In this document: piece by piece, positions 1,953 to 28,708 of the stretch
Position numbering within the stretch: position 1 is the first letter of the stretch
Layout of the letters: each line of letters begins with the position of its first letter
Translations under genes and position numbers: made by a program
The notes under the pieces: model-generated
The model's database searches: none
The model's input: only the letters and a program-made list of their open reading frames with translations
Told to the model about the DNA's origin: nothing
NCBI GenBank assembly: GCA_945897515.1
Contig: CAMDFO010000002.1
Span: 1 to 64,000, forward strand
Direction of reading: 5' to 3'
DNA from: Rhodoplanes serenus
GTDB lineage: Bacteria > Pseudomonadota > Alphaproteobacteria > Rhizobiales > Xanthobacteraceae
Length of the DNA: 64,000 nucleotides

Positions 1953-2681
1953 TCAACCGCCCGGCACGAAAGCGCCGGGCGGTCTTTCTTTGGGATCGAC
2001 GTAGGCGTGCTGCAGCGCGTCGCACATCGCCCACAGCACTGAGCATTTAAACTCCAGCGCCGCCAGGACTTGCTGCTGCTGTTCCGGAGTCCGTGCCTGC
2101 TGCTTGCAGTAGTCCAGCGCGAAGTCCGCATCGCGCGCGGCCTGCGGCGGCCGCTTGTCGAAATAGGACAGAGTCTCACGGGTGACGAAGCTGTAGCTCG
2201 CCAGCATACCGTCCATCCGCTCGGTGATGATTTGCGGCGAGAACATCTCGGTGAGCGACGACGCGATCGCCTCCAGCAGCGTTTTCTCGCGCACGAAACG
2301 GACGTAGGCATCGACCGCAAAGCGCGTGGCAGGCAGGAGTCCCTTCAGCGAGGTAACGTATTCACGGTCGAGCCCGAGTCCTTCGGTAAGCTTGAGCCAG
2401 CGGGCGATGCCACCGTCGCCATCGGCCTCGCCGTCGTGATCGACCAGTCGCGAGCGCCACTCGCGGCGCACGGCGGAATCCTCGCAACGCGCGATCAGGC
2501 TGGCATCCTTGATCGGGATCATCGCCTGATAATAGTAGCGGTTGAGCGCCCAGGCCTGGACCTGACCCTTGGTGCACTGCCCGCCATGCAGCAGCTTGTG
2601 GAACGGATGCAAACGATGATAGCGCCGTGCGCCGATGTCGCGCAGTGCGGCTTCCAGTTCGTCCGGCGTCAACAGCTTCAC
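1953..2681 (-). CDS. pqqC: PqqC, pyrroloquinoline-quinone synthase
   Basis: PqqC is the cofactorless oxidase that carries out the final ring closure and eight-electron oxidation to PQQ. At 242 residues it is slightly short but within the family range. Recognisable blocks are the N-terminal RRYHRLHPFHKLLHGG, the QAWALNRYYYQAMIPIKDA helix and the C-terminal LDYCKQQARTPEQQQQVL region. The start is a GTG that overlaps the pqqB stop (GTGA). The last codons double as the stem-loop terminator of the convergent Bug gene. In most genomes pqqD follows directly, whereas here it lies more than 1.1 kb further on, beyond that gene. Confidence 0.96.
   Translation of the reverse strand: MKLLTPDELEAALRDIGARRYHRLHPFHKLLHGGQCTKGQVQAWALNRYYYQAMIPIKDASLIARCEDSAVRREWRSRLVDHDGEADGDGGIARWLKLTEGLGLDREYVTSLKGLLPATRFAVDAYVRFVREKTLLEAIASSLTEMFSPQIITERMDGMLASYSFVTRETLSYFDKRPPQAARDADFALDYCKQQARTPEQQQQVLAALEFKCSVLWAMCDALQHAYVDPKERPPGAFVPGG
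1957..1991 (+). terminator. Rho-independent terminator of the inserted Bug gene
   Basis: A perfect 9-bp GC stem (CCGCCCGGC at 1957-1965 and GCCGGGCGG at 1974-1982) with an 8-nt loop is followed by a T-rich tract, TCTTTCTTT. On the plus strand this terminates the Bug receptor transcript. It lies entirely within the last codons of convergent pqqC, so the same bases also encode the PqqC C-terminus. Confidence 0.75.
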
Positions 2682-3580
2682 AACACGATCTCCATGCCGT
2701 CTTCCGCGATCTCCCAGCCGGCGGCCTCGACGCGCCGGCGTTCCGCCGAGCCATCGACCAGGATCGGATTGGTGTTGTTGATGTGTATGAAAATCCGGCG
2801 CGCCCGCAAGCCCTGCAACGCCGCGACCGATCCGTCCGCGCCGTCGATCGGCATATGGCCCATGCGGCGGCCGGTCTTGCTGCCGGTGCAGCTGCGGATC
2901 ATCTCATCGTCGGTGAATAACGTGCCATCAAATAGCAGCACGTCCGCGCGCGACAGCCGCTCCCTCAGCGCGGGCGTGACTGCGGCGGCGCCCGGCACAT
3001 AGGCGAGCCGGACCTTGCCGCAGGACAACTCCACACCAACATTGGCCGCGCTCTCGATCGCGGTGTCGGGATCGTCGCCTTCCAGATAGAGCGGCACCTT
3101 GCCCGGCACCATGAACAGCTCGGCTTCCAGTCCACCGCCGAGCGAAAAGCGCGCGCCTGGCACGATCGCGCAGCGCGACACCACGTCAGGGGCGAGCGCG
3201 CCGAACATCGGATTGCCGGCGACCGCCACCAGCGTCGTCGCGGTGGCGTGGAGCGCGAACGGCGAACACTCGCGCAGACTCAGCAGGCCGGCAGTCTGGT
3301 CGATCTCGGCGCCGGTCAGGACGACCGCTTCGATCGGACTGCCGCGCCTACTCGTTTGGGGATGCAAGCGTGGATTGGACTGGATCTGCGATCGCAGGTC
3401 GGGCGAGGCGTTGAGCAGGGTCCACCGCTCGCCATCCGCCGAAACCGCAACGCTCGCCTGCGTGCGCGCACGTACGCGCCGGTCACCGGCCCAAGCGAGC
3501 CGACAGACATCGCAATTGCAATTCCATTGCGGAAAGCCGCCGCCCGCCGCCGCACCCAGCACGATGGCGGTCAGGCCCAT
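2678..3580 (-). CDS. pqqB: PqqB, metallo-hydrolase-fold PQQ biosynthesis protein
   Basis: This 300-residue protein is PqqB, a metallo-beta-lactamase-fold enzyme that hydroxylates the cross-linked precursor tyrosine. The family opening is present (VLGAAAGGGFPQWNCNC), including the WNCNCxxC segment that forms a structural zinc site. Further conserved blocks are LLNASPDLRSQI, VVLTGAEIDQTAGLLSLRE and the C-terminal FIHINNTNPIL. It begins 22 bp after pqqA and overlaps pqqC by 4 bp, so pqqABC are one transcriptional unit. Confidence 0.97.
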   Translation of the reverse strand: MGLTAIVLGAAAGGGFPQWNCNCDVCRLAWAGDRRVRARTQASVAVSADGERWTLLNASPDLRSQIQSNPRLHPQTSRRGSPIEAVVLTGAEIDQTAGLLSLRECSPFALHATATTLVAVAGNPMFGALAPDVVSRCAIVPGARFSLGGGLEAELFMVPGKVPLYLEGDDPDTAIESAANVGVELSCGKVRLAYVPGAAAVTPALRERLSRADVLLFDGTLFTDDEMIRSCTGSKTGRRMGHMPIDGADGSVAALQGLRARRIFIHINNTNPILVDGSAERRRVEAAGWEIAEDGMEIVL

Positions 3581-3680: not shown

Positions 3681-3863
3681 GATGTTTCCTCTGCAATTCG
3701 TTCGCTATGAGCTAACGCAGAACAACAGCGCTCGTTGCACTCAAAGGTAGATCGGGTTCCATCCGGGCGCAAGCGGTTCACACCGGGTCAAAACACGGGA
3801 CTTTGCCTGTGAAAACTGTCATACTCTGACCACAACGTCTAGTTGTTGTCTTGGAGGCTCACG

Positions 3864-4100
3864 ATGCAAGCCGGGATTTTGATGCTCGTCTACATCCTCA
3901 CCACAGCCGTTCTACAATTCATCGGCTTTTTGATCAGCCAGCTTATCGATTATCAGCTTCCAACCTTCGGCCTCATGACCTTCCTGATCCTGTTCATGGG
4001 CGCGTTCGGACTCGCTTGGCCTATAGCGGTCTGGATCGCTGAAACAGGAATGCGGAAGTATGGGATCGAAATCGAGCAGATGGACAAGCGCGCCGTCTGA
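3864..4100 (+). CDS. Small two-segment membrane protein, function unknown
   Basis: This is a 78-residue hydrophobic protein with two predicted membrane segments (about residues 3-28 and 36-60) and a charged C-terminal tail (GIEIEQMDKRAV). The ATG at 3864 is chosen over an in-frame start at 3843 because a GGAGG lies 7 nt upstream of it. It is divergent from pqqA and convergent with the Fe-S subunit gene. I do not recognise the family. It could be a stress-induced small membrane protein, but there is no evidence for a specific role. Confidence 0.7.
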   Translation: MQAGILMLVYILTTAVLQFIGFLISQLIDYQLPTFGLMTFLILFMGAFGLAWPIAVWIAETGMRKYGIEIEQMDKRAV

Positions 4101-4139: not shown

Positions 4140-4973
4140 CTATAACCGGATTTCTCCGAGACTGAGGCTCTGACCGAGCTTCGCCTCGACGGTTTTCTTT
4201 CGGCCATGGCCGGAGATTTCAACGGTGTATGCGCCTGAGCCCTCATCCAGCCGGTCGAATTTGAAGTCCCCGTAATTGTCGGTCTCGGTCGCCGCGACCT
4301 GCGTACCGTCCTTGAGCAGCCGCACCGCCGCGCCCTCCACGCAGTCCACCACGCCATTGGCCTCGGTCGCGACGCTGCCGCCAATGAAGCATTTCGAGTA
4401 GCGCCATAGATTGCGGTAATAGACCCGCGGCTTGGTGGCGGCCTCGGGCTTCATCACCTCGAGCGCTTCGTCGCGCGCCATCCGCGCCATCTCGTCGTCT
4501 TCGACCTTGATCGCGCGCATCGCGCCGGTCGGGCAAGCCTGATGACCGCGGGTCTTGTCCCAGCCCTGGTCGAGCAGGTGCGCGTCGAACGTCCAGATTT
4601 GCGGAAGCTGCAATTCCTCGTTCCACCAGATATGGCCGTAGGGGCAACTCTCGACCAGATCCTTGCGGCCCTTGGCCTTGACCGGATCGATGATGACGAT
4701 GCCGTCCTCGCGCTTGTTCACCGCATCGCCGCCCTTGGACAGGCACGGCGCGTTGTCGCAGTGGTTGCACATGGTCGGCGCGAAGGCGATGTCGATCATC
4801 GGCGCCTGCCCGCGCTCCTTCTGCTTGATGTCGATCCAGTGGTGGCCGTGCCGCGGCATCGGCGCGGAATAGCCCGGCCAATCGTTGCCGACGTACTCGT
4901 CCATCGCCGACAGCGTGCACAACTGGCAATTGGTGCACTCGGCGACGTCGATGATCATGTTCCATTTTTTCAT
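4140..4973 (-). CDS. Fe-S (beta) subunit of a transhydroxylase-like molybdoenzyme
   Basis: This 277-residue electron-transfer subunit belongs to the DMSO-reductase superfamily. Ferredoxin-type cysteines occur at 13, 16, 19, 69, 72, 77, 110 and 147 (CTNCQLC, CNHCDNAPC, SCPYG, ACPTG), consistent with several [4Fe-4S] clusters. The last roughly 75 residues (GVVDCVEGAAVRLLKDG onward) form a predicted beta-sandwich of the Cna-B/transthyretin-like type. From memory, an iron-sulfur subunit with a trailing beta domain is the arrangement of the pyrogallol-phloroglucinol transhydroxylase small subunit. There is no signal peptide. It lies downstream of the large-subunit gene, separated by a 120-bp gap that holds a repeat. 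The substrate is unknown. Confidence 0.85.
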   Translation of the reverse strand: MKKWNMIIDVAECTNCQLCTLSAMDEYVGNDWPGYSAPMPRHGHHWIDIKQKERGQAPMIDIAFAPTMCNHCDNAPCLSKGGDAVNKREDGIVIIDPVKAKGRKDLVESCPYGHIWWNEELQLPQIWTFDAHLLDQGWDKTRGHQACPTGAMRAIKVEDDEMARMARDEALEVMKPEAATKPRVYYRNLWRYSKCFIGGSVATEANGVVDCVEGAAVRLLKDGTQVAATETDNYGDFKFDRLDEGSGAYTVEISGHGRKKTVEAKLGQSLSLGEIRL

Positions 4974-5000
4974 GGCGACTCTCTTACCCAGAACACAGTG

Positions 5001-5074
5001 TCATCATCCGCGAAGGCGGATGATCCAGCGTTTGCCGTAAGCCTGGATGCCCGCTTTCGCGGGCATGACAGCGG
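5001..5074. repeat. Paired palindromic intergenic repeat
   Basis: Two hairpins in tandem, a TCATCCGCGAAGGCGGATGA type followed by a GCCCGCTTTCGCGGGC type, end in ATGACAGCGG. The same two-hairpin layout recurs at 24304-24382 and 45601-45688, so this is a dispersed repeat unit and not a site specific to the molybdoenzyme. It lies between the two subunit genes. Confidence 0.75.
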
Positions 5075-5093
5075 TGTTGTTGCGCTCTCATCA

Positions 5094-8000
5094 TCATTTC
5101 GCCGGAACCAGATGCGCGTCCCGCAGCGACTGCTTGATCGTCGCGTCCCTCTCCATCGCGGCGAAGGTCTCCGACATATGCTCGATCCGGCCGTCCCACA
5201 GTTCGACCTGCACGATCGACTGCGCGCCGGCCAACGAATGCGTCGACTTGGTCTGGGTCTTGTGCGGGGTGAGCAGGTTGAGACAGCCGCCGCGGTCGAC
5301 CGACTTGCCCGGCTCGCCCATCGGCGCGTAGACCGCCGACGACTCGTAGCCGTGGCAGACGCCGCGCGACAGCCGCTGCGTCGGCAGCGCCGCGCAGATC
5401 ACCGCGCCGCGATCGTTGTAGATCTTCACCAGGTCGTTCTTCTTGATGCCGCGCGCTTTCGCATCCTCGGCGTTGAGCCGCAGCACCCAGTAATACCAGC
5501 CGTCGACCTTCACCCGGTGGTCGGCGATGTTGTTGAGGAACGAGCTCTTGCCGTCGCCCTGGGTGTGGAAGCTGTATTTCGAGTGCGGCGTGAGGAGTTG
5601 AAGCGGATAGCGCCCGAACTCCGGCGAATGCGGGCCTTCCCATGACGGCTCGTATTTGACGATCGGCGGCCGCTCCGGGTCCTTGGCGCGCTTGAGGCTG
5701 TTGCAGTCGAATTCGAGCTTGCCAGATTGGGTCTGCAGGCCCTTGAGGAACTCGTCCATGTAGTCCGACGGCAGCGGCTGCGCCTCCGGCACGTCCTTCT
5801 TGCGGCCTTCCCAGAACCAGCGGAAGGACACCGGCGCGCGCAGCTTTTCCTTCTCGGCGGGCACCACGTAATAGCCGCGCTTCAAGAGCTTCTTGAACGA
5901 GATCACCTTCGGCAGATCGGAGGCGAGATAGAGCCGCTTGACCCAATCGAGCTCGTTGATCCCCTCGGAGAAATAATTCGACAGCCCGAGCCGTTTGCAG
6001 ATCTCGTTGAATATCCAATAGTCCGATTTCGATTCGCCGAGCGGCTTGATCGCCGGCGCCTGGAAGATGATGACGCGGTGGTTAAGCTGCTGCTGGCCGT
6101 GGTGGCCGTAGCCGCCGAGCCCCGCCCATTCGCTGATGTCGGTGCGCTCGAAATTGGTGCAGGCCGGCAGCACGACATCGGCGAACTTGGCCTCGCCCTC
6201 GAACCAGATCGACTGGTTGACCACGAACTCCAGTTGCTCGGACTGGTACATCCGCACATGGCGGTTGGTGTTGTTCATGGTGCCGAGGATCGAGCCACCG
6301 TATTTGTAGAGCATCTTCACCGGCGACGCGCCCGGCGACGGATACATGAACTTGCCGAACTGGTGCTCGATCGATTTCCCGACCCAGCGATAGCCCTCCG
6401 CCTTCCCCTCGTAGATCGCCTCCGGCAGGAAGATGCGCGGGATCATCTGGCCGTTGGAATTCATGGTCGGAAGCTGCGGCATGCGCTGGTAGAGCGCGAC
6501 CGGCATCGCGGTGTTTTCCAGATCGCCCGACATGCCGCCTTCGGAATAGCCAGGGAAATAGAAATTGAAATCGACCGGGCAGCCCCATTGCAGGTTGCCC
6601 ATGTTGCAGCCGGGCTTGCCGAGCCCCTGCATCGCACTGAGGCAAACCATGACGCGCGCCCATTGGATGCCGGTCTGGTTGCGGCAGGCGCCGCCATGGC
6701 CGTTGCCCCAGCCGCCGGGGGCGAGATAGACGCGCTTGCTGCCCCACTCGCGGGCCAGCGCGCGCACGTCCTTCGCCGGAACGCCGGTTTCCTTCTCCTG
6801 CCACTCCGGCGTCTTGGCGATGCCGTCCTCTTCGCCAGTGAGATACGCCGCCCACTTGTCGAAGCCTTCAGTGTGGGTCTTCACGTATTCCTTGTCGTAC
6901 AGCCCTTCCTTGATCCAGACGTAGGCAATCGCCATCGCCATTGCGGGCGAGGTGGTCGGCTTCGGCGCGAACCACTTACCGGGCAGGAACTGCGCGGTAG
7001 CGTTGTAATACGGGTCGACGTGCACGACCTTGATGCCGAGCTTCGGATTCTTCAGCCACTGCCGGCGCACCGTGCCTTCCTGCGCGCCGTAGGAGCCCGA
7101 TGTGGTCTCAGGATCTGCCGCCCACGACACGATCATGTCGCAGTTCTGCAGGCAGTCCTCGACCGTGCCGTAGGTTTCCGACTGGCCGACGCGCAGCGTG
7201 TGGCCCCAGTGATGCACCGCGCCCAGTACCAGCCCTCCCAGGAATCCGGATTGTGGTGCACGCGCGTCATGCCGACGGCGTTGCTGAAACGGAACAGCGC
7301 CGAGAGGTAATAGCCGATGTTGCCCCAGGTGTGGTGCGAGCCGTGCGACACGGCGATGCAGCCGGGACCATAGGTCCGCTTCTGCCGCTTGATCTCGTTG
7401 GACACGATCGTGAGCGCCTCGTCCCACGAAATCCGGACGTATTCCGATTTGCCGCGGTTCTGCGGATTGCGCGCGCCGTTGGGATCGAAGTCGACCCGCT
7501 TCATCGGATAGAGCAGCCGGTCCGGCGAATAGACGATCGACTTGGCGTTCTGGCCGTGCGGCGCCAGCGTGGTCTTGCGCGGTGGCGTCAGCTTCACGCC
7601 CTTTGCGTCGATGCTCCATGGCTGCGGATCGGTGTCGTCGAAATCGATCGGCGTCATACGGACGATCTTGCCGTCCTTGACGGTGACGAACACCGGGCCG
7701 CCATTGGTCATGTTGCAATAGCGCACCGAGCCGTCGGCCTGCGGCAGGCCAAACTGCAGCCCAGCCGACTGCCCCATCATCACGGTCTGCGCGAACCAGT
7801 TGGCGAGGCCGTCCTCGCCCGTCACCGTGAGCTGGAATTCCTTCTGCGCGTTGATCTGGTCGAGCCAGTTGATCGGCGGCGTCAGCAGGCCGGCTCCCAG
7901 CGCGGCGTTCTTGAACGCCACCGTGACGTCGGCATCCTTGCGCACCCCAAAGCCCGAGGTCAGGCGGCCGTCCTGGAACCGGAACCAGCGGCCGATCTCC

Positions 8001-8140
8001 TCGTCGCGCGCCATGAACTGCGCCGTGAGGTTGTGCTCTTTCAGCCGCTCGCGGTACTCCGGATGCCGCCAAGCCTTGTATTTCAGCAGCACCGAGAGAC
8101 CGAACAGGATCAGCGAAAGCTTGATGGACGCGAGGTTCAT
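5094..8140 (-). pseudogene. Large subunit of transhydroxylase-like molybdopterin oxidoreductase, with a frameshift near 7222
   Basis: This bis-MGD molybdoenzyme would be about 1015 residues if a single G is restored at the GGG run (complement of 7222-7224). The first 306 codons run from the ATG at 8140, which has GAGGAGAAC upstream. The reading frame then shifts by one and continues to 5094. The N-terminus has a hydrophobic segment (about residues 5-20) and an SCP2-like domain (about 45-122), with no Tat motif. No N-terminal Fe-S cysteine cluster is present, as in transhydroxylase. His269 and the Asp299-Ser300 pair are spaced as I recall for His144 and Asp174-Ser175 (the molybdenum ligand) of pyrogallol transhydroxylase. 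Both sides of the shift look well conserved, so a sequencing error is as likely as real inactivation. Confidence 0.85.
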
Positions 8141-8202
8141 GGACGTTCTCCTCGCTCCGATTTCTATGGGAAATCGCCCACCGAATCCAGGGAAGGTCTC
8201 AT

Positions 8203-8311
8203 GTCCCGGGCGAGCGCAAGCGAGACCCGGGACCCCGGTTTCTTATGCCAAGGAACCGGGGTCCCGGTTCTGCAGCGCATCATCAAGGGATGCTGCGCTG
8301 CGCCCGGGACA
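8203..8311. repeat. Intergenic repeat, copy A (CCCGGG/ACCCGGGACCCC family)
   Basis: A block of nested palindromes (TCCCGGGCGAGC...ACCCGGGACCCCGG) is followed by CTGCAGCGCATCATCAA and a closing GCTGCGCCCGGGACAC. Nearly the same block is at 10101-10206. The two copies flank the small membrane protein and E2 genes, and both are intergenic. Confidence 0.85.
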
Positions 8312-8321
8312 CAAGTGTCGC

Positions 8322-8726
8322 CTACCTATTGATCCACGCCACCGTGATCCCCATCAGCACGAGGCGGATCGCGTCGAACACGATCTGCTTGAGGGCGAGA
8401 GCAAACGGAACCGGCGTCACCACGTGGTAGATCAGGTATGTCGGGACCACCGTCAGGAACGCAATCGCAATGCCGAAGCGCACGCCCTGCGCGAGCCAGG
8501 GCTTGTCCTCCCGGCCTTGCGCATAGATCCAGGCGAAGGCGACGCCGAACAGCGCCTGCGCCAGGATCATCCAGTGCATAAGCGTCTGCGCCTCTGCGGG
8601 CGGACGCATGCCCGCAGTGACCGAATAGTCGGCGCCAAGCAGCAATCCGTGGACGATGAAACTGAGCGCCCACGACATGATGAACATCGCGGCGGCGGAG
8701 ATCAGGAATTTCCGGTCCAATGCCAT
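8322..8726 (-). CDS. Small four-helix membrane protein linked to the molybdoenzyme
   Basis: This 134-residue protein has four predicted membrane segments (about residues 8-30, 48-68, 80-100 and 108-130) and few charged residues. It lies between E2 and the molybdoenzyme large subunit on the same strand. Position suggests it could be a membrane partner of the molybdoenzyme, but it lacks the multiple conserved histidines expected of a haem-b anchor: only H26, H51 and H101 are obvious. The family is not recognised with confidence; DUF1761/DoxX-like small membrane proteins are alternatives. Confidence 0.65.
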   Translation of the reverse strand: MALDRKFLISAAAMFIMSWALSFIVHGLLLGADYSVTAGMRPPAEAQTLMHWMILAQALFGVAFAWIYAQGREDKPWLAQGVRFGIAIAFLTVVPTYLIYHVVTPVPFALALKQIVFDAIRLVLMGITVAWINR

Positions 8727-8757: not shown

Positions 8758-10086
8758 CTACACCAGCATCCGCACCGGGCTTTCCATCAGCCCCTTGAAC
8801 GCCGCCAGCAGCTCCGCGCCGAGCGCGCCGTCGACCACGCGGTGGTCGCAGGACAGCGTCACCGTCATCTGGCTGACGAACCTGACGCTGCCGTCTTCGG
8901 CCTCGACCGGCCGCCGCTGCGAGGCGCCGACCGCCAGGATGGTGGCGTGCGGCGGGTTGATGATGGCCGCAAATTCTCGCACGCCGTACATGCCGAGGTT
9001 AGAGATCGCGGCTGAGCCGCCCTGGTATTCGGCAGGCTTGAGTTTCTTGTCGCGGGCGCGGCCGGCGAGTTCCCGCATCTCGCTGGAAATTGCGGAGAGC
9101 GATTTTCCTTCCGCGTTGCGGATCACCGGCGTCAGCAGCCCGCCTTCGATCGCAACCGCGACCCCGACATCGGAGTGCTTGAAGCGCAGGATGCGGTCGC
9201 CGGCCCACACGGCGTTCGCCGCCGGTACGCGCTGCAAGGCCAGCGCCAGCGCCTTGATGACGAAGTCGTTGAGCGACAGCTTGTAGGCCGCCTCGCCATC
9301 CTTGTTCTTCGCAGCGCCGGCATTGGCCTCCTCACGCAGCGCCATCACCGCGCCGACCTCGACGTCGGTGGTCAGATAGAAATGCGGAATGGTCTGCTTG
9401 GCCTCGATCAGGCGCGCGGCGATAGTCTTGCGCATGCCGTCGAGCGGCACCTCCTCGTAGTCGACGCCTTGATAGAGCGCCTTGACCTGATCGGCGGACG
9501 CGCCCGTCGCCATCGCCGCTCCTGCGCGGCCTGCCCCGCTGGAAATCACAGTCTCGACGTCGGCCGCGACGATGCGGCCATGCGGGCCGGAGCCCTGGAT
9601 ACGCGAAAGATCGATGCGGTTTTCTCCGGCGAGCCGCCGCGCCAATGGCGTGACGAATGTGCCGCTGGCGAGCTTCGCCGGGCCGTAATTGCGTTCAGGC
9701 GTGCGCACCTCGAAGAACGGATCCATCGGACCGGAATGCCGATAGGCATGCTGCGCAACCGCTGCCGCGGCCGGTGCCTTCGGGGCCGGCTTCGATGCAG
9801 TCGGAGCTGGCCGCGCGCCGGTCGCGGCCGCACTCGTCGTCACAGCCGCGCCGCCCTCACCCGCGATGATCGCCACCACCGCGCCGACCGGCGCCACCGC
9901 GCCCACCGGCACGCGGATTTCCGAAAGCGTGCCGGGCGCGATCGCCGGCACCTCCATGGTCACCTTGTCGGTCTCGATCTCGAACAGGTTGTCGCCGGCT
10001 TTCACGGCGTCGCCGGCTGACTTGAACCATTTGGTGATCTTACCCTCGGAGACGGTCTCTCCGAGCTGCGGCATCAGGACGTCCAT
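8758..10086 (-). CDS. Dihydrolipoyl acyltransferase (E2) of a 2-oxoacid dehydrogenase complex
   Basis: This 442-residue E2 core subunit transfers the acyl group from E1-bound ThDP via lipoyl-lysine to CoA. It has a single N-terminal lipoyl domain with the lipoylated lysine at K41 (ETDKVTME), an Ala/Pro-rich linker, and a peripheral-subunit-binding domain (FVTPLARRLAGEN). The C-terminal acyltransferase domain has the catalytic HxxxDG (H415-D419). The ATG at 10086 is chosen over a GTG two codons earlier because GAGAGGTGGG precedes it. It is the last gene of the E1alpha-E1beta-ALDH-E2 run. No E3 gene is nearby. Pyruvate, acetoin or branched-chain specificity cannot be decided from the sequence. 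Confidence 0.92.
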   Translation of the reverse strand: MDVLMPQLGETVSEGKITKWFKSAGDAVKAGDNLFEIETDKVTMEVPAIAPGTLSEIRVPVGAVAPVGAVVAIIAGEGGAAVTTSAAATGARPAPTASKPAPKAPAAAAVAQHAYRHSGPMDPFFEVRTPERNYGPAKLASGTFVTPLARRLAGENRIDLSRIQGSGPHGRIVAADVETVISSGAGRAGAAMATGASADQVKALYQGVDYEEVPLDGMRKTIAARLIEAKQTIPHFYLTTDVEVGAVMALREEANAGAAKNKDGEAAYKLSLNDFVIKALALALQRVPAANAVWAGDRILRFKHSDVGVAVAIEGGLLTPVIRNAEGKSLSAISSEMRELAGRARDKKLKPAEYQGGSAAISNLGMYGVREFAAIINPPHATILAVGASQRRPVEAEDGSVRFVSQMTVTLSCDHRVVDGALGAELLAAFKGLMESPVRMLV

Positions 10087-10100
10087 TCCCACCTCTCGTA

Positions 10101-10217: not shown

Positions 10218-11675
10218 CTACCAGCTCACAGAAATATACTGCGTCTCCAGAAACTCCATCAGCCCTTCGTGCGCGCCTTCGCGGCCGATGCCGGACTGTT
10301 TCATGCCGCCGAATGGCGCGGCCGGGTCAGACACCAGCCCGCGGTTCAAGCCGATCATGCCGAAGTCGAGCTTTTCGGAGACGCGCATGCCACGGCCAAG
10401 GTCCTTGGTGTAGAGATACGCCACCAGCCCGTACTCGGTGTCGTTGGCGCGCTTGATCACCTCGTCCTCCGAGGTGAACGTCTGCAATGATGCCACCGGC
10501 CCGAAGATTTCCTCGTTCAGCATCTTGGCGTCGTTCGGCACGTTGGAGAGCACCGTCGCGGGATAGAAGAACCCCGGACCATCCGGCTGCTTGCCGCCAA
10601 CGAGAATTTTCGCGCCCTTGCCGACCGCGTCTTCGACCAGCTCGATCACCTTGTCGCGGCCTTCGGCATTGACCAGCGGGCCGAGCGCCACGCCGTCGTC
10701 GAGGCCGTTGCCCATCTTGAGCGCGCCCATCTTGGCGGTAAGCTTTTTGGCAAACTCCTCCTGCACCTTCTCGTGCACGTAGAAGCGGTTGGCAGCAGTG
10801 CAGGCTTCGCCCATGTTGCGCATCTTGGCGATCATCGCGCCGTCGATCGCGGCGTCGACATCGGCGTCCTCGAACACGATGAACGGCGCGTTGCCGCCAA
10901 GCTCCATCGCGGTGTTGAGCACCTGATCGGCGGCGCTGTGCAGGAGCTTGCGGCCGACTTCCGTGGAGCCGGTGAACGAGACCACCCGCACGCGCGGATC
11001 GTGCAGCATGTGGTCGACCACCGGACCGGAGCGGCGCGACGGCAGAACGTTGACGACACCGGCCGGAACGCCGGCCTCTTCCAGGATCGGCATCAGCGCC
11101 AGCATGGTCAGCGGAGTCTCGGACGCGGGCTTGAGGATGACTGGGCAGCCGGCGGCGAGCGCCGGTCCGATCTTGCGGGTCGCCATAGCGGCGGGGAAAT
11201 TCCACGGCGTCACCAGCACGGCGATGCCGGCCGGCTTGTGGTGCACGAACATGCGCGCGCCGGAGGATGGCGCCATGCCGTTCTGGCCGAGGTTTCGCAC
11301 GCCCTCCTCCGCGTTCCAGCGGAAGAACTCAGCGGCGTAGGCGACCTCGCCGCGCGAATCCGACAGCGCCTTGCCGTTCTCGATGGTAATCAGCTTCGCC
11401 AGCCGCTCGGCGTCGCGCATGATCAGTTCGAACGCCTTGCGCAGGATTTCGCCCCGCTCGCGCGGCTTCTTGGCGGCCCAGGGGCCGAAAGCGGCTTGCG
11501 CGGCGTCGAGCGCGGCCTTGGCGTCCTCGATGCTGGCGCTAGCGACCGAGGCGATCTTCTGCTCGGTCGCCGGATCGATCACGTCGAAGCGCGCGCCATC
11601 AGATGACTTGCGCCATTTGCCGTCGATCCAGAGGTCGATCGGGACGTTCGCAAGCAGATTGTCATATGCGGCCAT
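10218..11675 (-). CDS. NAD(P)-dependent aldehyde dehydrogenase, succinate-semialdehyde dehydrogenase type
   Basis: This 485-residue class-3 aldehyde dehydrogenase oxidises an aldehyde to the acid with NAD(P)+. All hallmark residues are visible: TPWNFPAAM with N159, K182 in ILKPASETP, FTGSTEVG (235-241), catalytic base E258 in ELGGN and nucleophile C292 in GEACTAANR. A strong AGGAG precedes the ATG. The sequence style resembles succinate-semialdehyde dehydrogenase (GabD). It sits between E1beta and E2, an uncommon location that implies it acts on an aldehyde from the same pathway. Acetaldehyde or another semialdehyde are possible substrates. Confidence 0.92.
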   Translation of the reverse strand: MAAYDNLLANVPIDLWIDGKWRKSSDGARFDVIDPATEQKIASVASASIEDAKAALDAAQAAFGPWAAKKPRERGEILRKAFELIMRDAERLAKLITIENGKALSDSRGEVAYAAEFFRWNAEEGVRNLGQNGMAPSSGARMFVHHKPAGIAVLVTPWNFPAAMATRKIGPALAAGCPVILKPASETPLTMLALMPILEEAGVPAGVVNVLPSRRSGPVVDHMLHDPRVRVVSFTGSTEVGRKLLHSAADQVLNTAMELGGNAPFIVFEDADVDAAIDGAMIAKMRNMGEACTAANRFYVHEKVQEEFAKKLTAKMGALKMGNGLDDGVALGPLVNAEGRDKVIELVEDAVGKGAKILVGGKQPDGPGFFYPATVLSNVPNDAKMLNEEIFGPVASLQTFTSEDEVIKRANDTEYGLVAYLYTKDLGRGMRVSEKLDFGMIGLNRGLVSDPAAPFGGMKQSGIGREGAHEGLMEFLETQYISVSW

Positions 11676-11684
11676 GATGAACTC

Positions 11685-12665
11685 CTACGCTTTGAGCGTG
11701 CGCCGCACCCGTTCGACGATGCGGTCGACGGTCGGCAGGATGGCGTCTTCCAGAATATCCGCCGCCGGCAGCGGGATGTGCGGCGTGGTGATCCGCACCA
11801 GTGGGCCGTCGAGATCGTAGAACGCCTCGTCGGCGATGATCGACATGATCTCGGCACCCCAGCCGCACAGCCGTGGGTTCTCCTCGACCGAAAAGCAGCG
11901 GTGGGTCTTGGCGACCGAGCCAAGGATGGTCTGGGTGTCGAGCGGCACCAGCGAACGGACGTCGATGACTTCGCAGTCGATGCCATGCTCGGCGGCGAGC
12001 CGTTCGGCAGCGGCCAGCGCGCGTGGGACCATCAAAGCCAGCGCGATGATGGTGGCGTCCCTGCCGGGCCGCAGAATCTTCGCGGTGCCGAGCTTGTCGA
12101 GAATCTCGCCGTCCGGCACCTCGCCCTTGGTCCCATAGAGCGACTTGTGTTCGAGGAAGATCACCGGGTCCGGATCGCGCACCGCAGCGGCCAGCAAACC
12201 GATCACATCGACCGGGCTCGACGGCGCCACGACCTTGAGGCCGGGGATCATCATGCACCAGTTCTCGACGCTCTGAGAGTGCTGTGCGCCGAACCGCGAG
12301 CCCGCGCCGTTGCCGGTGCGCACCACCAGCGGGCACTTGGTCTGCCCGTTGGTCATGTAGCGGCTCTTGGGAAACTCGTTAGCAATGTAGTCGAAGCAGA
12401 CCGCGAAAAAGTCCGAGAACATGATCTCGGCGATCGGCTTCAACCCGGTCATCGCCGCGCCCATCGCGGCGCCGAGGATCGCCTGCTCCGAGATCGGGGT
12501 GTCGCGCACGCGCAATGGCCCGAACTGCTCGTACAGACCGACGGTCGCCTTGAATACGCCGCCCGCCTTCGCCACGTCCTCGCCGAGGAATACCACGTCG
12601 GGGTCGCGCGCCATCTCCTGCGCGATGCCGCGGGCGACGGCGTCGCGATACGTCAGTTCCGCCAT
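11685..12665 (-). CDS. E1 beta subunit, 2-oxoacid (acetoin/pyruvate-type) dehydrogenase
   Basis: This 326-residue transketolase-like beta subunit forms the heterotetrameric ThDP-dependent E1 with the neighbouring alpha subunit. Conserved blocks are FLGEDVAKAGGVFKAT, DTPISEQAILG, FGAQHSQSVENW and a C-terminal VEENPRLCGWGAEI. It overlaps the E1alpha gene by 13 bp, indicating translational coupling. AcoB-like acetoin dehydrogenase and PdhB-like pyruvate dehydrogenase are the closest kinds; the sequence alone does not separate them. Confidence 0.93.
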   Translation of the reverse strand: MAELTYRDAVARGIAQEMARDPDVVFLGEDVAKAGGVFKATVGLYEQFGPLRVRDTPISEQAILGAAMGAAMTGLKPIAEIMFSDFFAVCFDYIANEFPKSRYMTNGQTKCPLVVRTGNGAGSRFGAQHSQSVENWCMMIPGLKVVAPSSPVDVIGLLAAAVRDPDPVIFLEHKSLYGTKGEVPDGEILDKLGTAKILRPGRDATIIALALMVPRALAAAERLAAEHGIDCEVIDVRSLVPLDTQTILGSVAKTHRCFSVEENPRLCGWGAEIMSIIADEAFYDLDGPLVRITTPHIPLPAADILEDAILPTVDRIVERVRRTLKA

Positions 12666-13672
12666 GCCCAGCCCCCGTCGGCGTAAACGTCGGTCGTCAG
12701 GATATCCATCGGCGGATTCGGCGCGGCCTTGCAGGCCTCGGTGGCCTCATCGACGATCCGCTTGATGTCGGCGTCGATCTTGGCAACCGCATCGTCGCCG
12801 ATGCCGAACTGCTTCAAGCGCTCGCGATAGATCTTGATCGGGTCGCGCTCCTTCCAGCGTTCCAGCTCGCCTTCGGGGCGATACTTCGCCGGGTCGGCGC
12901 GCGAATGGCCGCTGTGGCGGTAGGTCATGCACTCGATCAGCGACGGACCCTTGCCGGCGCGGGCCTTCTCGTAGGCCGTCATCGCGGTTCGGTACACCAC
13001 ATCGGCGTCGTTGCCATCGATCACGATGCGCTCCAGGCCGTAGGCCGAGGCACGGTCCGCCGCCGGATGCTCGACCGCAGTAACGTCGCGAATAGGGGTG
13101 TATTCCATGTAGAGATTGTTCTCGCAGACGAAGATTACTGGCAGTTTCCACACCGCTGCGAAGTTCAGCGCCTCGTGGAACGCGCCAATGTTGGTGGTGC
13201 CGTCGCCGAAGAAACACGTCGTCACGTCGCTGTGACCTTTGTACTGCGCCCGCCACGCCGCGCCGCAGGCGATCGGCAAATGCGCGCCGATGATGGCATA
13301 GGAGCCCATCACGCCGTGTTCTTCCGAGGTCAGGTGCATCGAGCCGCCCTTGCCGCGCATCAAGCCGTTGTCGCGCTGCATCAGTTCGCCCAGAACCTGC
13401 TCGACCGGCACGCCCCTGGCCAAGGTGTGCGCGTGGCCGCGATAGGTGCAGAACGAAAGGTCGCCCTTCTTCATAGCAACGGCAAAGCCGGCGGCTACTG
13501 CCTCCTGTCCCAGTGACAGATGGCTCGTTCCCTTCACCAAGTTCTGCAAGAACAGGTCAAACGCCCGCTGCTCGGCCTCCCGGATGTTGACCTGGCTGCG
13601 GTAGAGCTCCAGCCGCGTCTCCTCCCCGATATCGTCGTTCAGGGCGGCCGCGGGGATCGGTTTCTTCGACAT
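12653..13672 (-). CDS. E1 alpha subunit, 2-oxoacid (acetoin/pyruvate-type) dehydrogenase
   Basis: This 339-residue ThDP-binding alpha subunit contains the thiamine diphosphate motif spanning about residues 156-186 (GDGTTNIGAFHEALN, ending in CENN). It also has SHLSLGQEAVAAG, the MRGKGGSMHL block and the phosphorylation-loop-like TYRHSGHSRADP region. It begins the E1alpha-E1beta-ALDH-E2 unit and overlaps E1beta by 13 bp. Length is typical of AcoA/PdhA. The preceding gene on the strand is a DMT exporter ending 59 bp upstream, so a promoter could lie there, although all genes run the same way. Confidence 0.93.
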   Translation of the reverse strand: MSKKPIPAAALNDDIGEETRLELYRSQVNIREAEQRAFDLFLQNLVKGTSHLSLGQEAVAAGFAVAMKKGDLSFCTYRGHAHTLARGVPVEQVLGELMQRDNGLMRGKGGSMHLTSEEHGVMGSYAIIGAHLPIACGAAWRAQYKGHSDVTTCFFGDGTTNIGAFHEALNFAAVWKLPVIFVCENNLYMEYTPIRDVTAVEHPAADRASAYGLERIVIDGNDADVVYRTAMTAYEKARAGKGPSLIECMTYRHSGHSRADPAKYRPEGELERWKERDPIKIYRERLKQFGIGDDAVAKIDADIKRIVDEATEACKAAPNPPMDILTTDVYADGGWAWRN

Positions 13673-24403: not shown

Positions 24404-25438
24404 TTACGCCCCCAATTCCTTTCTTCCAATCTTTGTCCCCTCCACCATCGCGCACATCTTCCCGAACGCCACGTCGCGCGGCAGATATTTCAGCCCGCAA
24501 TCCGGCGCCACCACGATCCGCTCCGCCGGCACGTGCGGCAGCGCTCGACGGATGCGCGCCGCGACCGTCTCGGGAGACTCGATATTCATGTCGGAGAGAT
24601 CGAGCACACCGAGAATAATGGTCTTGCCCGGAAGCTTCTCCAGCACCGCGCAATCAAGCCCCGACTGCGCGGTCTCGATCGATACCTGCTGCACCGGCGA
24701 ATTCACGAATTCCGGCAGAAACGAATAGCCCTCCGGCCGTACGTGGATCACCGCCGCGTAGCCGAAGCAGATGTGCACCGCCGTCGTGCCCGTCACACCG
24801 TCCAGCGCCGCGTTCATGGCCTTCAGCCCGTACTTCCGCGCCTTGTCCGGCCGGGCCTGCATGTAGGGCTCGTCGATCTGCACGATGTCGGCGCCGGCCG
24901 CGAACAGGTCCTTGATCTCGGCATTGACGGCGGCGGCATAGTCCAGCGCCATCTCCTCCTCGTCCTTGTAGAAATCGTTCTGCGCCTGCTGCGACATCGT
25001 GAACGGGCCGGGCACCGTGATCTTGATGGTGCGGTCGGTGTTGGCGCGGAGGAACTTCACGTCGCGCACCTCGACGGCGTGCTTGCGGCGCACCTTGCCG
25101 GCGACGCGCGGGACCGGATTGGGATGGCCGGAGCGATCGAGCGCGGTGCCGGGATTGTCGATGTCGACGCCTTCAAGCGCGGTGGCGAAGCGGTTGGAGT
25201 AGCTTTCGCGCCGCATCTCCCCGTCGGTGATGATGTCCAGCCCGGCGCGCTCCTGGTCGCGGATCGCGATCAAGGTCGCATCGTCCTTCGCCTGGTCGAG
25301 CCATTCCGGCGCGATCCGCCACAGCTCCTTGGCGCGAACGCGCGGCGGAAAACGACCCGCGAGCTTCTTGCGGTCGATCAGCCATTCAGGCTGGGCGTAG
25401 GAGCCCACCAGCGAGGTGGGCAGCAGCGGCAGTGGCAT
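24404..25438 (-). CDS. MetE-like (cobalamin-independent methionine synthase C-terminal fold) protein
   Basis: This 344-residue single-domain protein has the UROD/MetE barrel. Likely zinc ligands are visible in AVHICFG (His-x-Cys) and APDCGLKYL (Cys). IDEPYMQ matches the conserved acidic block of the family. Full-length MetE is about 750 residues, so this is not a complete methionine synthase. Related single-domain proteins include alkyl-coenzyme M transferases and methyltransferases of catabolic pathways. GGAGGAAAC precedes the ATG. It forms a minus-strand group with a SemiSWEET, a GlcD-GlcF fusion and another MetE-like gene. The substrate is unknown. Confidence 0.87.
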   Translation of the reverse strand: MPLPLLPTSLVGSYAQPEWLIDRKKLAGRFPPRVRAKELWRIAPEWLDQAKDDATLIAIRDQERAGLDIITDGEMRRESYSNRFATALEGVDIDNPGTALDRSGHPNPVPRVAGKVRRKHAVEVRDVKFLRANTDRTIKITVPGPFTMSQQAQNDFYKDEEEMALDYAAAVNAEIKDLFAAGADIVQIDEPYMQARPDKARKYGLKAMNAALDGVTGTTAVHICFGYAAVIHVRPEGYSFLPEFVNSPVQQVSIETAQSGLDCAVLEKLPGKTIILGVLDLSDMNIESPETVAARIRRALPHVPAERIVVAPDCGLKYLPRDVAFGKMCAMVEGTKIGRKELGA

Positions 25439-25477
25439 GATGTTTCCTCCGGCTGCCGGAGACTAGCAGCAGCACCG

Positions 25478-25744
25478 CTATGCGGAACGGAAATTTTCAC
25501 GCAACCGGAAATACAGGATGCCCATCAGGAAACAGAGACTGATGCTGTTGGCGAGCACGATGACCATGTCGTTCTGCAGCACGCCGTACACGATCCAGAG
25601 CGCGATACCGGCCGCGAGGATCGAGAACATCTTCAGTGACAGGTCGTCGGCCGAGCCGGTGTCCCAGCATTTCTTGAGCTGCGGGATGTAGGAGACGGTG
25701 GTGCAGAATGCGGCGAGCAGGCCGATGACAGTGGTGAGGTTCAT
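25478..25744 (-). CDS. SemiSWEET transporter
   Basis: This 88-residue protein with three predicted membrane helices carries the PQ-loop motif (SYIPQLKKCWDTGSADDLS in helix 1 to loop). That matches a SemiSWEET, the bacterial half-size homologue of eukaryotic SWEET sugar uniporters, which works as a dimer. Length is standard (about 85-95). It lies between the GlcD-GlcF fusion gene and a MetE-like gene on the same strand, suggesting uptake or release of a small sugar or related solute. Confidence 0.9.
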   Translation of the reverse strand: MNLTTVIGLLAAFCTTVSYIPQLKKCWDTGSADDLSLKMFSILAAGIALWIVYGVLQNDMVIVLANSISLCFLMGILYFRLRENFRSA

Positions 25745-25753
25745 GACGCCGCG

Positions 25754-28708
25754 TCAACGCACCGCGGCGGGAGCGGTTCCTTGCAGGCTCATCGCCAGCA
25801 CCCGCGCCACATGCAGCGCTTCGCGGCTAGCACCGTCGTGGATCTGGTGGCGGCAGGAGGTGCCGTCCGCCACCACCAGCGTGCCGACGTCCGCCTTGCG
25901 CACCGCCGGCAGCAGCGAAAGCTCGCCCATCGCCAGCGAAACGTCGATGGTGTCGGCGGCGTAGCCGAAGCTGCCGGCCATGCCGCAGCAGCTCGATTCG
26001 ATGGTCTCGACCTTCAGGTCCGGCACCAGCCGGAGCACCTGCTCGACCGGCGTAAAGGCGTCGAACGCCTTCTGGTGACAATGGCCATGGACCAGCGCGC
26101 GCTCGGCGATCTTGTTCAGCGGCAGATTGAGCCGGCCTTCGTTGGCCTCACGCGCCAGAAATTCCTCGAACGTGAAAGCGTGATCGGAAACGCGCTTCGC
26201 GCTCTCACCCTTCACCATCGCCGGAATTTCGTCGCGGAAGCTGAGGAGGCAGCTCGGCTCCAGGCCGATCACCGGAACGCCGCGCTCGGCATAGGGCGCG
26301 AGCGCTGCGAGCGAGCGTTCCGCTTCGTGCCGCGCCTGTTCCACCGCCCCGACGGACAGGAAGGTGCGGCCGCAGCACAGCGGACGGGACGAGCCGTCCG
26401 CCGGTTTCGCCACATGCGCCCGATAGCCGCCGGCATTCAGTACGGCGAGCGCGGCGTCGAGGTTCTCGCGCTCGAAATAGCGATTGAAGGTGTCGGCGAA
26501 GAGAACGACCTCGGGCGTGCCACTCCCTTCGCCGTTGTGGGAGTCGTCGAACACATCCGAGCGCCAGCGCGGGAGAGACCGCCGCGTGCTGAACCCCGCC
26601 ACCGCTTCGGACAGCTTCGCCGCGCCGGGCAGCACATCGCGCAAATTCAACAGCCACGGCACCTTCGCCGCATAGGGCGCGTAGCGTGGCAGCCAGCCCA
26701 CCAGTCGGTCGTGCAGCGAATAGCCGTGCTTCTTCGCCCGCGCCGCCTGCACCTCGATCTTCATGCGCGCCATATCGACGCCGGTCGGGCACTCGCGGCG
26801 GCAGCCTTTGCAGGACACGCAAAGCTTGAGCGTCTCCGCCATCTCATCTGATGTCAGCGCATCCGGACCGAGCTGGCCGGTGATCGCCAATCGCAACGAG
26901 TTGGCGCGGCCGCGCGTCACGTCGCGCTCGTCGCGCGTCACGCGATAGCTCGGGCACATCACGCCGCCGGCGAGCGAACGGCAGGCGCCGTTGTTGTTGC
27001 ACATCTCGACCGCGCCCTGGAAACCGCCGCCCGCCCCGGTATAGGCCGACCAGTCGAGCTGCGTGCGCATCGCCCAGGCGTGATAGTCGGGCCCGTAGCG
27101 GAAGTTGCTGCGGTCGTCGAACTTCGGCGCACGCACGATCTTGCCGGGATTGAACAACCCGCCAGGATCGAAGCGATCCTTCACCTCCTCGAAGGCTCGA
27201 GCGAGCCTTGAGCCGAACATCGGCTCGTTGAACTCCGAGCGCACCAGCCCGTCGCCATGCTCGCCGGAATGCGAGCCCTTGTATTCGCGCACGAACGCAA
27301 ACGCCTGCTCGGCGATGTTGCGCATCGCCTTAACGTCCTTGTCGAGCCGCAGGTTGAGGATCGGCCGCACGTGCAGGCAACCGACCGAGGCATGCGCATA
27401 CCAGGTGCCGCTGGTGCCGTTGCTCTCAAACACCTCTGTCAGCCGCGCGGTGTAGTCCGCAAGATGCTCTAGCGGCACCGCGCAGTCCTCGACGAACGAC
27501 ACCGGTTTCCCGGCGTCCTTCATCGACATCATGATGTTGAGACCGGCGGTGCGAAGCTCGGTGATCGCGCCCTGCAGCTTCGGATCGAGCACGTCGACGA
27601 CGCCGCCCCATTTGGCGCCGCTGTTGCGCCAGTCGAAGCCGAGGTCGCCCATCAATTCGTGCAGCCGCTGCAAGCGCCGCACGTTCTCGTCCCATTCGGC
27701 CTCGGCGAATTCCACCAGCAGCAGCGCCTGCGGCACATCGCGCACAAACGCTTCCAGCGTCGGGCGGAACATGTCGATCTCGCGCGCCAGCGAGACCATC
27801 GTGGCGTCGACCAACTCAACCGCGATAGGCGCAAGCTTGACGATATGCTGCGCCGCCGCCATCGCTTCGTGGAAGCTGCCGAAGTGGCAGGCGCCGACCG
27901 CGCGCCGGCCCAGCAGCGGCGACAATTTCAGTTCGATCGCGGTGGAGAACGCGAGCGTGCCTTCCGAGCCCACGAGAATATGCGCGAGGTTGACGTCGTT
28001 GCGCCCAGGCACCAGCGAGTCGATGTTGTAGCCGCCGACGCGACGCTGCACGCTCGGAAACCGCGCCGCGATCTCGCCGGCCTCGCGCGCGCCCAGCGCG
28101 AACAGATCGCGCGCCAGCGGAAGCAGCGGCGAATTCGCCGGCACGTCGGAGAGGTCCGGCGCGACCGGACCGAAATGCGCCTTGGCTCCGTCCGCCAGCA
28201 GGGCGTCGATCGCAATGACATTTTCACGGGTGTTGCCGTAGCGCAGCGAGCGGCCGCCGCAGGAGTTGTTTGCGGTCATCCCGCCGATGGTGGCGCGCGA
28301 TGCGGTCGAGACATCGACCGGAAACCACAGGCCGTGGGCCTTGAGCTGGCGGTTGAGGTCGTCGAGCACGATGCCCGGCTCGACCCGGCAGCGCCGTCCG
28401 GCCACGTCCAGATTTAGGATGCGGGTGAGATGTTTCGAGCAGTCGACGACGAGCGATTGGTTCACCGTCTGACCGGCTTGCGACGAGCCCCCGCCGCGCG
28501 GCAGCACGGTGACGCCCTCAGCTCGGGAAATCGCTATCGCCCGTTCGGTTTCTTCAATCGTCCGCGGCGTGACCACGCCGAGCGGCATGATCTGGTAATG
28601 CGACGCATCCGTTGCGTAGCGGCCCCGTGTGAACCGGTCGAATTGCACGCCGCCCGTGACTTCGGCTTTGAGCCGACGCTCCAGTCCCGGCAGCAGTCTC
28701 TCCGCCAT
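25754..28708 (-). CDS. GlcD-GlcF type FAD-linked oxidase/Fe-S oxidoreductase fusion
   Basis: This 984-residue fusion enzyme probably oxidises a 2-hydroxy acid. Domains in order are a FAD-binding PCMH domain with VLPRGGGSSQAGQTVNQ (about 75-91), a FAD-oxidase C-terminal domain, a 4Fe-4S region (CNNNGACRS with CPSY, then CVSCKGCRRECPTG), and two CCG domains (CCGRTFLS and SSCCGMAG). This composition resembles D-lactate or glycolate dehydrogenases fused to their iron-sulfur subunit. The start at 28708 shares one base with the stop of the upstream MetE-like gene (TGATG), so expression is coupled. It lacks membrane segments and acts in the cytoplasm. Confidence 0.9.
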   Translation of the reverse strand: MAERLLPGLERRLKAEVTGGVQFDRFTRGRYATDASHYQIMPLGVVTPRTIEETERAIAISRAEGVTVLPRGGGSSQAGQTVNQSLVVDCSKHLTRILNLDVAGRRCRVEPGIVLDDLNRQLKAHGLWFPVDVSTASRATIGGMTANNSCGGRSLRYGNTRENVIAIDALLADGAKAHFGPVAPDLSDVPANSPLLPLARDLFALGAREAGEIAARFPSVQRRVGGYNIDSLVPGRNDVNLAHILVGSEGTLAFSTAIELKLSPLLGRRAVGACHFGSFHEAMAAAQHIVKLAPIAVELVDATMVSLAREIDMFRPTLEAFVRDVPQALLLVEFAEAEWDENVRRLQRLHELMGDLGFDWRNSGAKWGGVVDVLDPKLQGAITELRTAGLNIMMSMKDAGKPVSFVEDCAVPLEHLADYTARLTEVFESNGTSGTWYAHASVGCLHVRPILNLRLDKDVKAMRNIAEQAFAFVREYKGSHSGEHGDGLVRSEFNEPMFGSRLARAFEEVKDRFDPGGLFNPGKIVRAPKFDDRSNFRYGPDYHAWAMRTQLDWSAYTGAGGGFQGAVEMCNNNGACRSLAGGVMCPSYRVTRDERDVTRGRANSLRLAITGQLGPDALTSDEMAETLKLCVSCKGCRRECPTGVDMARMKIEVQAARAKKHGYSLHDRLVGWLPRYAPYAAKVPWLLNLRDVLPGAAKLSEAVAGFSTRRSLPRWRSDVFDDSHNGEGSGTPEVVLFADTFNRYFERENLDAALAVLNAGGYRAHVAKPADGSSRPLCCGRTFLSVGAVEQARHEAERSLAALAPYAERGVPVIGLEPSCLLSFRDEIPAMVKGESAKRVSDHAFTFEEFLAREANEGRLNLPLNKIAERALVHGHCHQKAFDAFTPVEQVLRLVPDLKVETIESSCCGMAGSFGYAADTIDVSLAMGELSLLPAVRKADVGTLVVADGTSCRHQIHDGASREALHVARVLAMSLQGTAPAAVR

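Follow-up and report, generated by a model that had tools for sequence, protein, structure and literature searches.

A transhydroxylase-type molybdenum enzyme with a fused SCP2-like domain: a candidate oxygen-independent phenol hydroxylase encoded in Rhodoplanes serenus

Introduction

Transhydroxylase-type molybdenum enzymes are known from a few anaerobes. The closest described system is PgtLS, the pyrogallol-phloroglucinol transhydroxylase of Pelobacter acidigallici, whose small subunit PgtS carries three [4Fe-4S] clusters. Hydroxylation by a second enzyme, resorcinol hydroxylase RhLS of Azoarcus anaerobius, reportedly feeds a ring-cleavage complex resembling pyruvate dehydrogenase, BqdLMS, which is said to open the ring in the anaerobic hydroxyhydroquinone pathway. 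RhL and PgtL are listed as Ser-coordinated relatives in PMC10100899. Here we examine a locus of Rhodoplanes serenus that encodes such an enzyme with an addition at its N-terminus. It occupies positions 4140 to 8726 of a stretch of 64,000 nucleotides (the window), which is part of one contig, CAMDFO010000002.1, of a draft genome (119 contigs totalling 4.47 Mb; completeness 88.9%).

A preliminary description of this locus proposed a transhydroxylase-like molybdoenzyme with an N-terminal SCP2-like domain, an Fe-S partner and a small membrane protein. We found all three genes on the minus strand: the Fe-S subunit at 4140-4973, the large subunit within 5094-8140 and the membrane protein at 8322-8726. 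Homology of the large subunit to pyrogallol-phloroglucinol transhydroxylase is clear. With moderate confidence we read it as a membrane-associated, transhydroxylase-type enzyme with a bis(molybdopterin guanine dinucleotide) cofactor and a fused SCP2-like domain, acting as an O2-independent phenol hydroxylase or transhydroxylase that feeds ring cleavage. The predicted substrate is probably a resorcinol-type phenol, perhaps a hydrophobic one. Among the papers listed by searches of an open-licence library, none connects transhydroxylase to SCP2 or to sterol carrier proteins.

Results

In the window the large subunit is read in two open frames. Both parts have as their best match in the Protein Data Bank (PDB) the large subunit of pyrogallol-phloroglucinol transhydroxylase, 4v4c_A (phmmer; E = 1.2e-221 for the C-terminal part and 2e-59 for the N-terminal part). 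The AlphaFold2 (AF2) model of an intact relative, L008 (predicted local distance difference test, pLDDT, 79), has the same chain as its top Foldseek match, with a target template modelling (TM) score of 0.90 at 49% identity; comparison of structures thus agrees with the kinship first proposed. The features of the two subunits are these:

4140..4973, minus strand: Fe-S small subunit with C-terminal Cna-B-like beta domain (4v4c_B, E = 1.9e-77, residues 1-275)
5094..7217, minus strand: large (Mo) subunit, C-terminal part, in a frame different from that of the N-terminal part (94% identity to L008; ratio of nonsynonymous to synonymous substitution, dN/dS, 0.09-0.15)
7217..7235, minus strand: reading-frame change within the large-subunit gene (a single open frame in 7/10 congeners)
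7223..8140, minus strand: large subunit, N-terminal part, with the SCP2-like domain and the start of the Mo domain (PF21423, 86.6 bits; match to 4v4c_A from residue 139)
8042..8140, minus strand: N-terminal hydrophobic/amphipathic helices, residues 1-33 (AF2 helices 3-25 and 27-33; hydropathy)
7730..8029, minus strand: SCP2-like domain, residues ~38-137 (AF2; Foldseek SCP2 matches)
7334..7336, minus strand: His269, aligned with transhydroxylase His144 (alignment with 4v4c_A)
7241..7246, minus strand: Asp299-Ser300, aligned with Asp174-Ser175 (same alignment)
6546..6548, minus strand: Tyr aligned with Tyr404 (alignment; 232 residues past the Ser in L008 numbering)

His144, Asp174, Ser175 and Tyr404 are kept in 86/86 aligned relatives, near-copies from the same genomes included, and in the window parts. 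We take Ser175 to be the Mo ligand; the roles of His144, Asp174 and Tyr404, and of the pocket residues Arg153, Trp354 and Phe468, are likewise assumed. The preliminary description had picked out H269 and D299-S300 by their spacing, together with a Tyr near +229. The first three fall on residues 144 and 174-175 of 4v4c_A, the Tyr lies three residues further on than estimated, and the active-site match holds across the full alignment. Also as described, the first part of the large subunit lacks the usual N-terminal Fe-S motif (no Molybdop_Fe4S4 match, no CxxC) and a Tat signal (no twin-Arg). Around the active site the pocket departs from that of PgtL: Arg153 is replaced by Tyr in 79/86 rows, Phe468 by Trp in 71/86 and Trp354 by His in 57/86. 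The window has Y, H and W at 153, 354 and 468.

What precedes the Mo domain? A Pfam search with residues 1-155 gives no family at E 0.01. AF2, run on 77 sequences, predicts an SCP2-like fold for the N-terminal part (pLDDT 88), and Foldseek against the PDB returns the SCP2-like domains of the alkylsulfatases SdsA1/Pisa1 (E ~6e-6), UbiJ-SCP2 (1.5e-5; target TM 0.62-0.65), AF1534 and animal SCP2 proteins, with E-values from 5e-6 to 5e-3 against many SCP2 structures. The claim of an SCP2-like domain at the N-terminus is therefore upheld by prediction for the first ~125 residues, as is that of an added hydrophobic segment, where AF2 places two helices. In 85/86 relatives a model of the SCP2-like domain reaches 40 bits or more, in the same frame as the Mo part, so the architecture proposed for one protein recurs in other genomes; PgtL and two unfused paralogues score at most about 1 bit. 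Those paralogues, L138 and L141, are transhydroxylase-like proteins from genomes that have fused copies too. Two genomes, G399 and G460, each encode two fused copies and one unfused paralogue that starts at the Mo domain. In Sinorhizobium terangae (L096, 10079-12024) ~1.5 kb of other sequence stands between the SCP2-like part and the Mo part downstream of it, so that gene is interrupted.

On a tree that leaves the SCP2 columns unused, PgtL and the two unfused rows split from all other rows with an SH-aLRT value of 99. The tree was built quickly from 87 rows, 66 of them without a neighbour label, and it carries the warning that the long unfused branches meet. It omits L081, L144 and L146; near-copy status is established for L081 alone.

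Relatives of the N-terminal part are encoded in at least 579 candidate stretches of genome contigs, so this is not just an open reading frame that arose by chance. The best 80 of these stretches were kept, marine SAR116 and soil bacteria among them; several of the search patterns lie in the SCP2 part, which biases the set towards fused proteins. Sampling of genomes with PF21423 found the family in 5/288 other genomes of the class, 15/23 others in the order of genome G208 and 5/398 others in the order of G864, and in 0/397 others of the phylum above the cut-off, with one below it. These samples exclude the genome at the centre of each, and since those of the class, the phylum and the order of G864 score just the best 16 or 22 first-look candidates where there were more, misses are possible. 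Apart from the window's, the open frames above the cut-off are at least 993 residues long, with one exception of 646. Eight plasmid records carry relatives at 52-58% identity (Ensifer canadensis, Paraburkholderia, Burkholderia stagnalis, Cupriavidus oxalaticus, Salipiger abyssi, Rhizobium and Sinorhizobium). The copy is annotated as a molybdopterin-dependent oxidoreductase in 4/8; two records (H6 and H8) lack gene annotation and were compared by similarity alone.

The Fe-S subunit aligns with 4v4c_B over its full length. The Cna-B-like beta domain proposed for its end is included in that alignment, with Pfam matches below their cut-offs. Eight of its cysteines are kept in the window at 13, 16, 19, 69, 72, 77, 110 and 147 (window numbering), corresponding to 13, 16, 19, 68, 71, 76, 109 and 149 of PgtS; Cys23, Cys126, Cys129 and Cys145 are lost. 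In the related rows, of which there are 84 with near-copies again included, Cys126 is Trp in 81/84 and Cys129 is Asp in 82/84, and Cys23 and Cys145 remain in 18/84 and 19/84. Both Cys126 and Cys129 are present in two rows only: the Fe-S partners of the unfused paralogues L138 and L141. By the usual pairing of motifs we presume that the four lost cysteines ligate a single cluster, and we infer from this that the Fe-S subunit of the fused family would hold two clusters in place of three.

Which genes accompany the enzyme? We scored 36 of the 80 loci, those with at least 4 kb on both sides, after dropping the near-copy L081. In 19/36 a gene for E1/E2, an extradiol dioxygenase, HmgA, a resorcylate-type decarboxylase or UbiD lies within 8 kb, against 0/35 control stretches. 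Some of the queries came from loci that were counted; without L054 and L061, which match only themselves, the count is 17/36. The loci are related by descent, so a Fisher value on this count is not a true probability. Of 60 controls wanted 35 existed, 25 contigs being too short; they come from 16 genomes, ten stretches from one of them (G326), and two are shorter than 20 kb.

The accompanying genes fall into several kinds. E1 or E2 homologues lie beside the enzyme in the window genus and also in L050, L069, L145 and L183. The E1 has separate alpha and beta chains in the window genus and in L145 (78-84% identity) and is fused in L050, L069 and L183, with L050 and L069 at 36-37% to the window's E1 beta. 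The occurrence of two E1 forms suggests a repeated association with the Mo enzyme. In Magnetospirillum sp. SS-4 one stretch holds a regulator, the Mo enzyme, the Fe-S subunit, HIBADH, cupins, a transporter, an M24 protein, an aldehyde dehydrogenase (ALDH) and E1. An extradiol-type dioxygenase (HpaD or catechol 2,3-dioxygenase-like, called below model cut-offs) and an FAH hydrolase adjoin the enzyme at four SAR116 loci, at L058 and L149, and on the Burkholderiales plasmids L092-L094. On the Ensifer and Sinorhizobium plasmids there are genes of the VOC family and genes for FAH, an acyl-CoA synthetase and a FadL-type protein; the Ensifer and Burkholderiales relatives have outer-membrane proteins of FadL or OmpW type and acyl-CoA synthetases as neighbours. 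In three marine Rhodospirillales loci (L061, L065 and L066, at ~7.3-14.3 kb) homogentisate dioxygenase (HmgA) and fumarylacetoacetase come immediately before the SCP2-fused Mo subunit and a cytochrome P450 follows it, and no Fe-S subunit gene adjoins the Mo gene (family scan for L061 only). A gamma-resorcylate decarboxylase follows the enzyme in L068 (2dvt, E 8.6e-108); the neighbouring decarboxylase of L021 best matches the same enzyme and that of L084 5-carboxyvanillate decarboxylase.

A further cluster recurs in L050, L062/L183, L069, L145 and L181. It comprises a LysR-like regulator, the Mo and Fe-S subunits, two small cupins, an M24 peptidase-like protein, a Liv-type ABC transporter and a second MopB protein with an Fe4S4 domain, the parts varying by locus, and it is possibly a pathway of its own. 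In L064, L143 and L179, genes similar to the MetE-like gene of L050 lie close to the Mo enzyme. The labels LysR, LivH/LivF, TRAP and MetE (L050) were assigned from sequence rather than by family scan.

In the window the enzyme belongs to a minus-strand run of seven genes: E1 alpha, E1 beta, ALDH, E2, the small membrane protein, the Mo large subunit and the Fe-S subunit. The gaps between them range from -13 to 181 bases, so the run resembles a single operon. Upstream of the large subunit lie:

8322..8726, minus strand: small membrane protein, weak DUF1761 match below cut-off (family scan; not conserved)
8758..10092, minus strand: E2 lipoyl acyltransferase of an accessory 2-oxoacid-dehydrogenase-type complex (family scan)
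10218..11675, minus strand: aldehyde dehydrogenase; nearest NCBIfam model succinate-semialdehyde dehydrogenase, below its cut-off
11685..12665, minus strand: E1 beta
12653..13672, minus strand: E1 alpha, of the second E1 of the genome

The preliminary description had placed the enzyme next to a 2-oxoacid dehydrogenase/ALDH cluster. E2, ALDH, E1 beta and E1 alpha do adjoin it, but adjacency understates the case: across the window genus they look like part of the same operon. Gene order is conserved there, since EamA, E1 alpha, E1 beta, ALDH, E2, the large subunit and the Fe-S subunit recur in close relatives within contig reach. A higher-scoring E1 is encoded on another contig (C34), and it is therefore unlikely that the window's E1/E2 is the housekeeping pyruvate dehydrogenase. 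The small membrane protein does not fare as proposed. Among the loci examined only the window and two other genomes carry it, and we reject it as a third subunit; its role as a component of the system is not supported.

Several other genes lie nearby. After the operon, on the same strand, come small PqqD-, PqqC- and PqqB-like genes (530-817, 1953-2681 and 2678-3580), names assigned from sequence rather than by family scan; a TctC-type solute-binding gene (868-1887) lies between them on the opposite strand. Comparable genes adjoin the operon in a number of close relatives, not in L011. An 85-residue hydrophobic protein without a Pfam match is encoded directly past the end of the Fe-S gene (3843-4100, plus strand). 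At 24404-30072 two Meth_synt_2 (MetE C-terminal-like) genes flank a 987-residue FAD-linked oxidase and a PQ-loop protein.

Discussion

How might such an enzyme work? We envisage that the N-terminal amphipathic helix would hold it at the cytoplasmic face of the membrane, where the SCP2-like domain would take up or present a phenol. The Mo site, with its Ser ligand and its set of Asp, His and Tyr, would then add or move a hydroxyl without O2, and a ring-cleavage enzyme from a neighbouring gene would receive the polyhydroxylated ring. In the window this role could fall to the E1 alpha/E1 beta/E2 complex, which would open a hydroxyquinone ring by thiamine diphosphate (ThDP) and lipoate chemistry, leaving ALDH to oxidise the aldehyde fragment. 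In some relatives the ring opener might instead be an extradiol dioxygenase with an FAH hydrolase, or homogentisate dioxygenase. The constant of the family is the transhydroxylase-type Mo site with its SCP2-like front; the variable is the neighbouring ring-opening or decarboxylating enzyme, where one was scored at all.

The SCP2-like domain, the membrane-type N-terminus, the FadL/OmpW-type porins and the acyl-CoA synthetases suggest a hydrophobic substrate. Taken furthest, they would describe a family of membrane-tethered hydroxylases or transhydroxylases of lipid phenols such as alkylresorcinols, in which the SCP2-like domain is the carrier, one Fe-S cluster has been given up as hydroxyl transfer is redox-neutral, and the product goes to a ThDP/lipoyl complex or to O2-dependent dioxygenases. 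We hold this extended version to be rather doubtful. The clades linked to homogentisate and resorcylate argue that the substrate need not be a lipid in every clade.

A number of observations weigh against the reading we favour. No scored neighbour was found at 17/36 loci. Mapped on the tree, the E1/E2 label takes three changes and so does the extradiol/FAH label, two of them in each case forced by starred branches, and any of these changes may be a gain or a loss. As the neighbours vary from clade to clade, one substrate is unlikely to serve the whole family, and in the clades linked to gamma-resorcylate or homogentisate the small size and solubility of these compounds speak against a lipid substrate. 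The SCP2 matches have modest TM scores (~0.38-0.56, normalised by query length), and a domain of this kind can mediate oligomerisation or contact with the membrane while carrying no substrate. In the L008 model the active-site loops 269-273, 299-304, 310-319 and 532-553 have pLDDT below 50. At 5/36 loci no such Fe-S gene lies within 8 kb and, with the loss of Fe-S ligands, this makes a net oxidation with export of electrons uncertain.

The alternative that survives best, one we take seriously while thinking it unlikely, places the family in the RhLS lineage, its substrates being dihydroxybenzenes or dihydroxybenzoates that are small and soluble. In that case the SCP2-like domain would only anchor the protein to the membrane or stabilise it, and the published RhL may already have it. 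The E1/E2 neighbours are reminiscent of the BqdLMS step of the anaerobic hydroxyhydroquinone pathway, and the gamma-resorcylate-type decarboxylases of L068, L021 and L084 and the second MopB gene of several clusters also fit. In PMC10100899, RhL is counted among the Ser-coordinated, cytoplasmic relatives of PgtL. Less easily accommodated are the FadL/OmpW-type porins and acyl-CoA synthetases beside the plasmid relatives, and the fact that the closest SCP2 matches belong to lipid- or surfactant-handling proteins.

Does the window's own copy work? The preliminary description treated the large subunit as one gene product and missed the change of frame near 7217-7235 that separates the N-terminal part (7223-8140) from the C-terminal part (5094-7217). 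This copy may not yield a full-length protein, and a second close copy was not found in this genome, as would suit a dead pseudogene. We judge that to be quite unlikely. Neither half contains a further stop, and dN/dS against L007-L009 is 0.17-0.24 for the N-terminal part and remains 0.09-0.15 for the part downstream of the break, indicating purifying selection on both. Full-length, stop-free relatives occur in 7/10 other genomes of the genus, with no such match among those listed for the remaining three, and in 29/198 genomes examined in the family; besides the window's own, three further family genomes have the gene in pieces, two with a stop in a piece. Because both halves retain low dN/dS, we ascribe the break to an assembly error or a recent lesion, and the assembly is a draft (88.9% complete, 119 contigs).

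A reductive direction, in which the enzyme would act as a dehydroxylase or in the manner of a hydratase, is very unlikely. MopB relatives do include acetylene hydratase, whose structure 2e7z is among the structural matches of L008, and the catechol dehydroxylases of PMC7028382. The same paper sets the dehydroxylases apart from other MopB groups, however, the family has the full transhydroxylase active-site set with its Ser ligand, and the ring-cleavage neighbours require more hydroxyls, not fewer. An O2-independent hydroxylase of isoprenoid-quinone biosynthesis, its SCP2-like domain working like UbiJ/UbiT, would explain why UbiJ-SCP2 is among the best structural matches and would suit a pathway that needs several ring hydroxylations, but we reject it as highly improbable given the patchy occurrence (5/288 in the class, 5/398 in the order of G864), the catabolic neighbours, the copies on large plasmids and the two fused and one unfused copies of G399 and G460.

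If the mechanism that we favour holds, phenols would be hydroxylated by water in place of O2 by an enzyme with a built-in lipid-handling domain, and it becomes possible to test directly what role the accessory E1-E2 complexes play and what role the lost Fe-S ligands had. The SCP2-fused branch is widespread, rhizobial and burkholderial plasmids included. Were the lipid-phenol version true, water-derived hydroxylation would operate within the otherwise aerobic aromatic catabolism of soil, rhizobial and SAR116-type marine bacteria.

Comparison with known systems

BqdLMS, the hydroxybenzoquinone cleavage complex, is likened to the window's genes by description: it too is an E1/E2-type complex encoded beside a transhydroxylase-like hydroxylase, although the window's E1/E2 could act on another oxo compound. 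RhLS is placed in the same Ser-coordinated subgroup by PMC10100899, a likeness again of description. The catechol dehydroxylases of gut Actinobacteria are also MopB enzymes acting on polyphenols; PMC7028382 treats them as distinct from other MopB groups, and we set them apart on that description rather than by sequence. The SCP2 domain of UbiJ and the C-terminal domain of SdsA1/Pisa1 alkylsulfatases, the best Foldseek matches, share the SCP2-like fold at 17-24% identity and are not fused to a Mo enzyme.

PgtLS (4v4c) stands nearest. It has homologous large and small subunits, the same Ser/Asp/His/Tyr active site and the same Cna-B-like end of the small subunit. It differs in its pocket, where R153, F468 and W354 are replaced in most rows of the fused family, and in its small subunit, since the cysteines of what is presumably one PgtS cluster are missing from the window's Fe-S subunit. 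PgtL is without the SCP2-like domain: the window protein has 138 extra residues ahead of its match to 4v4c.

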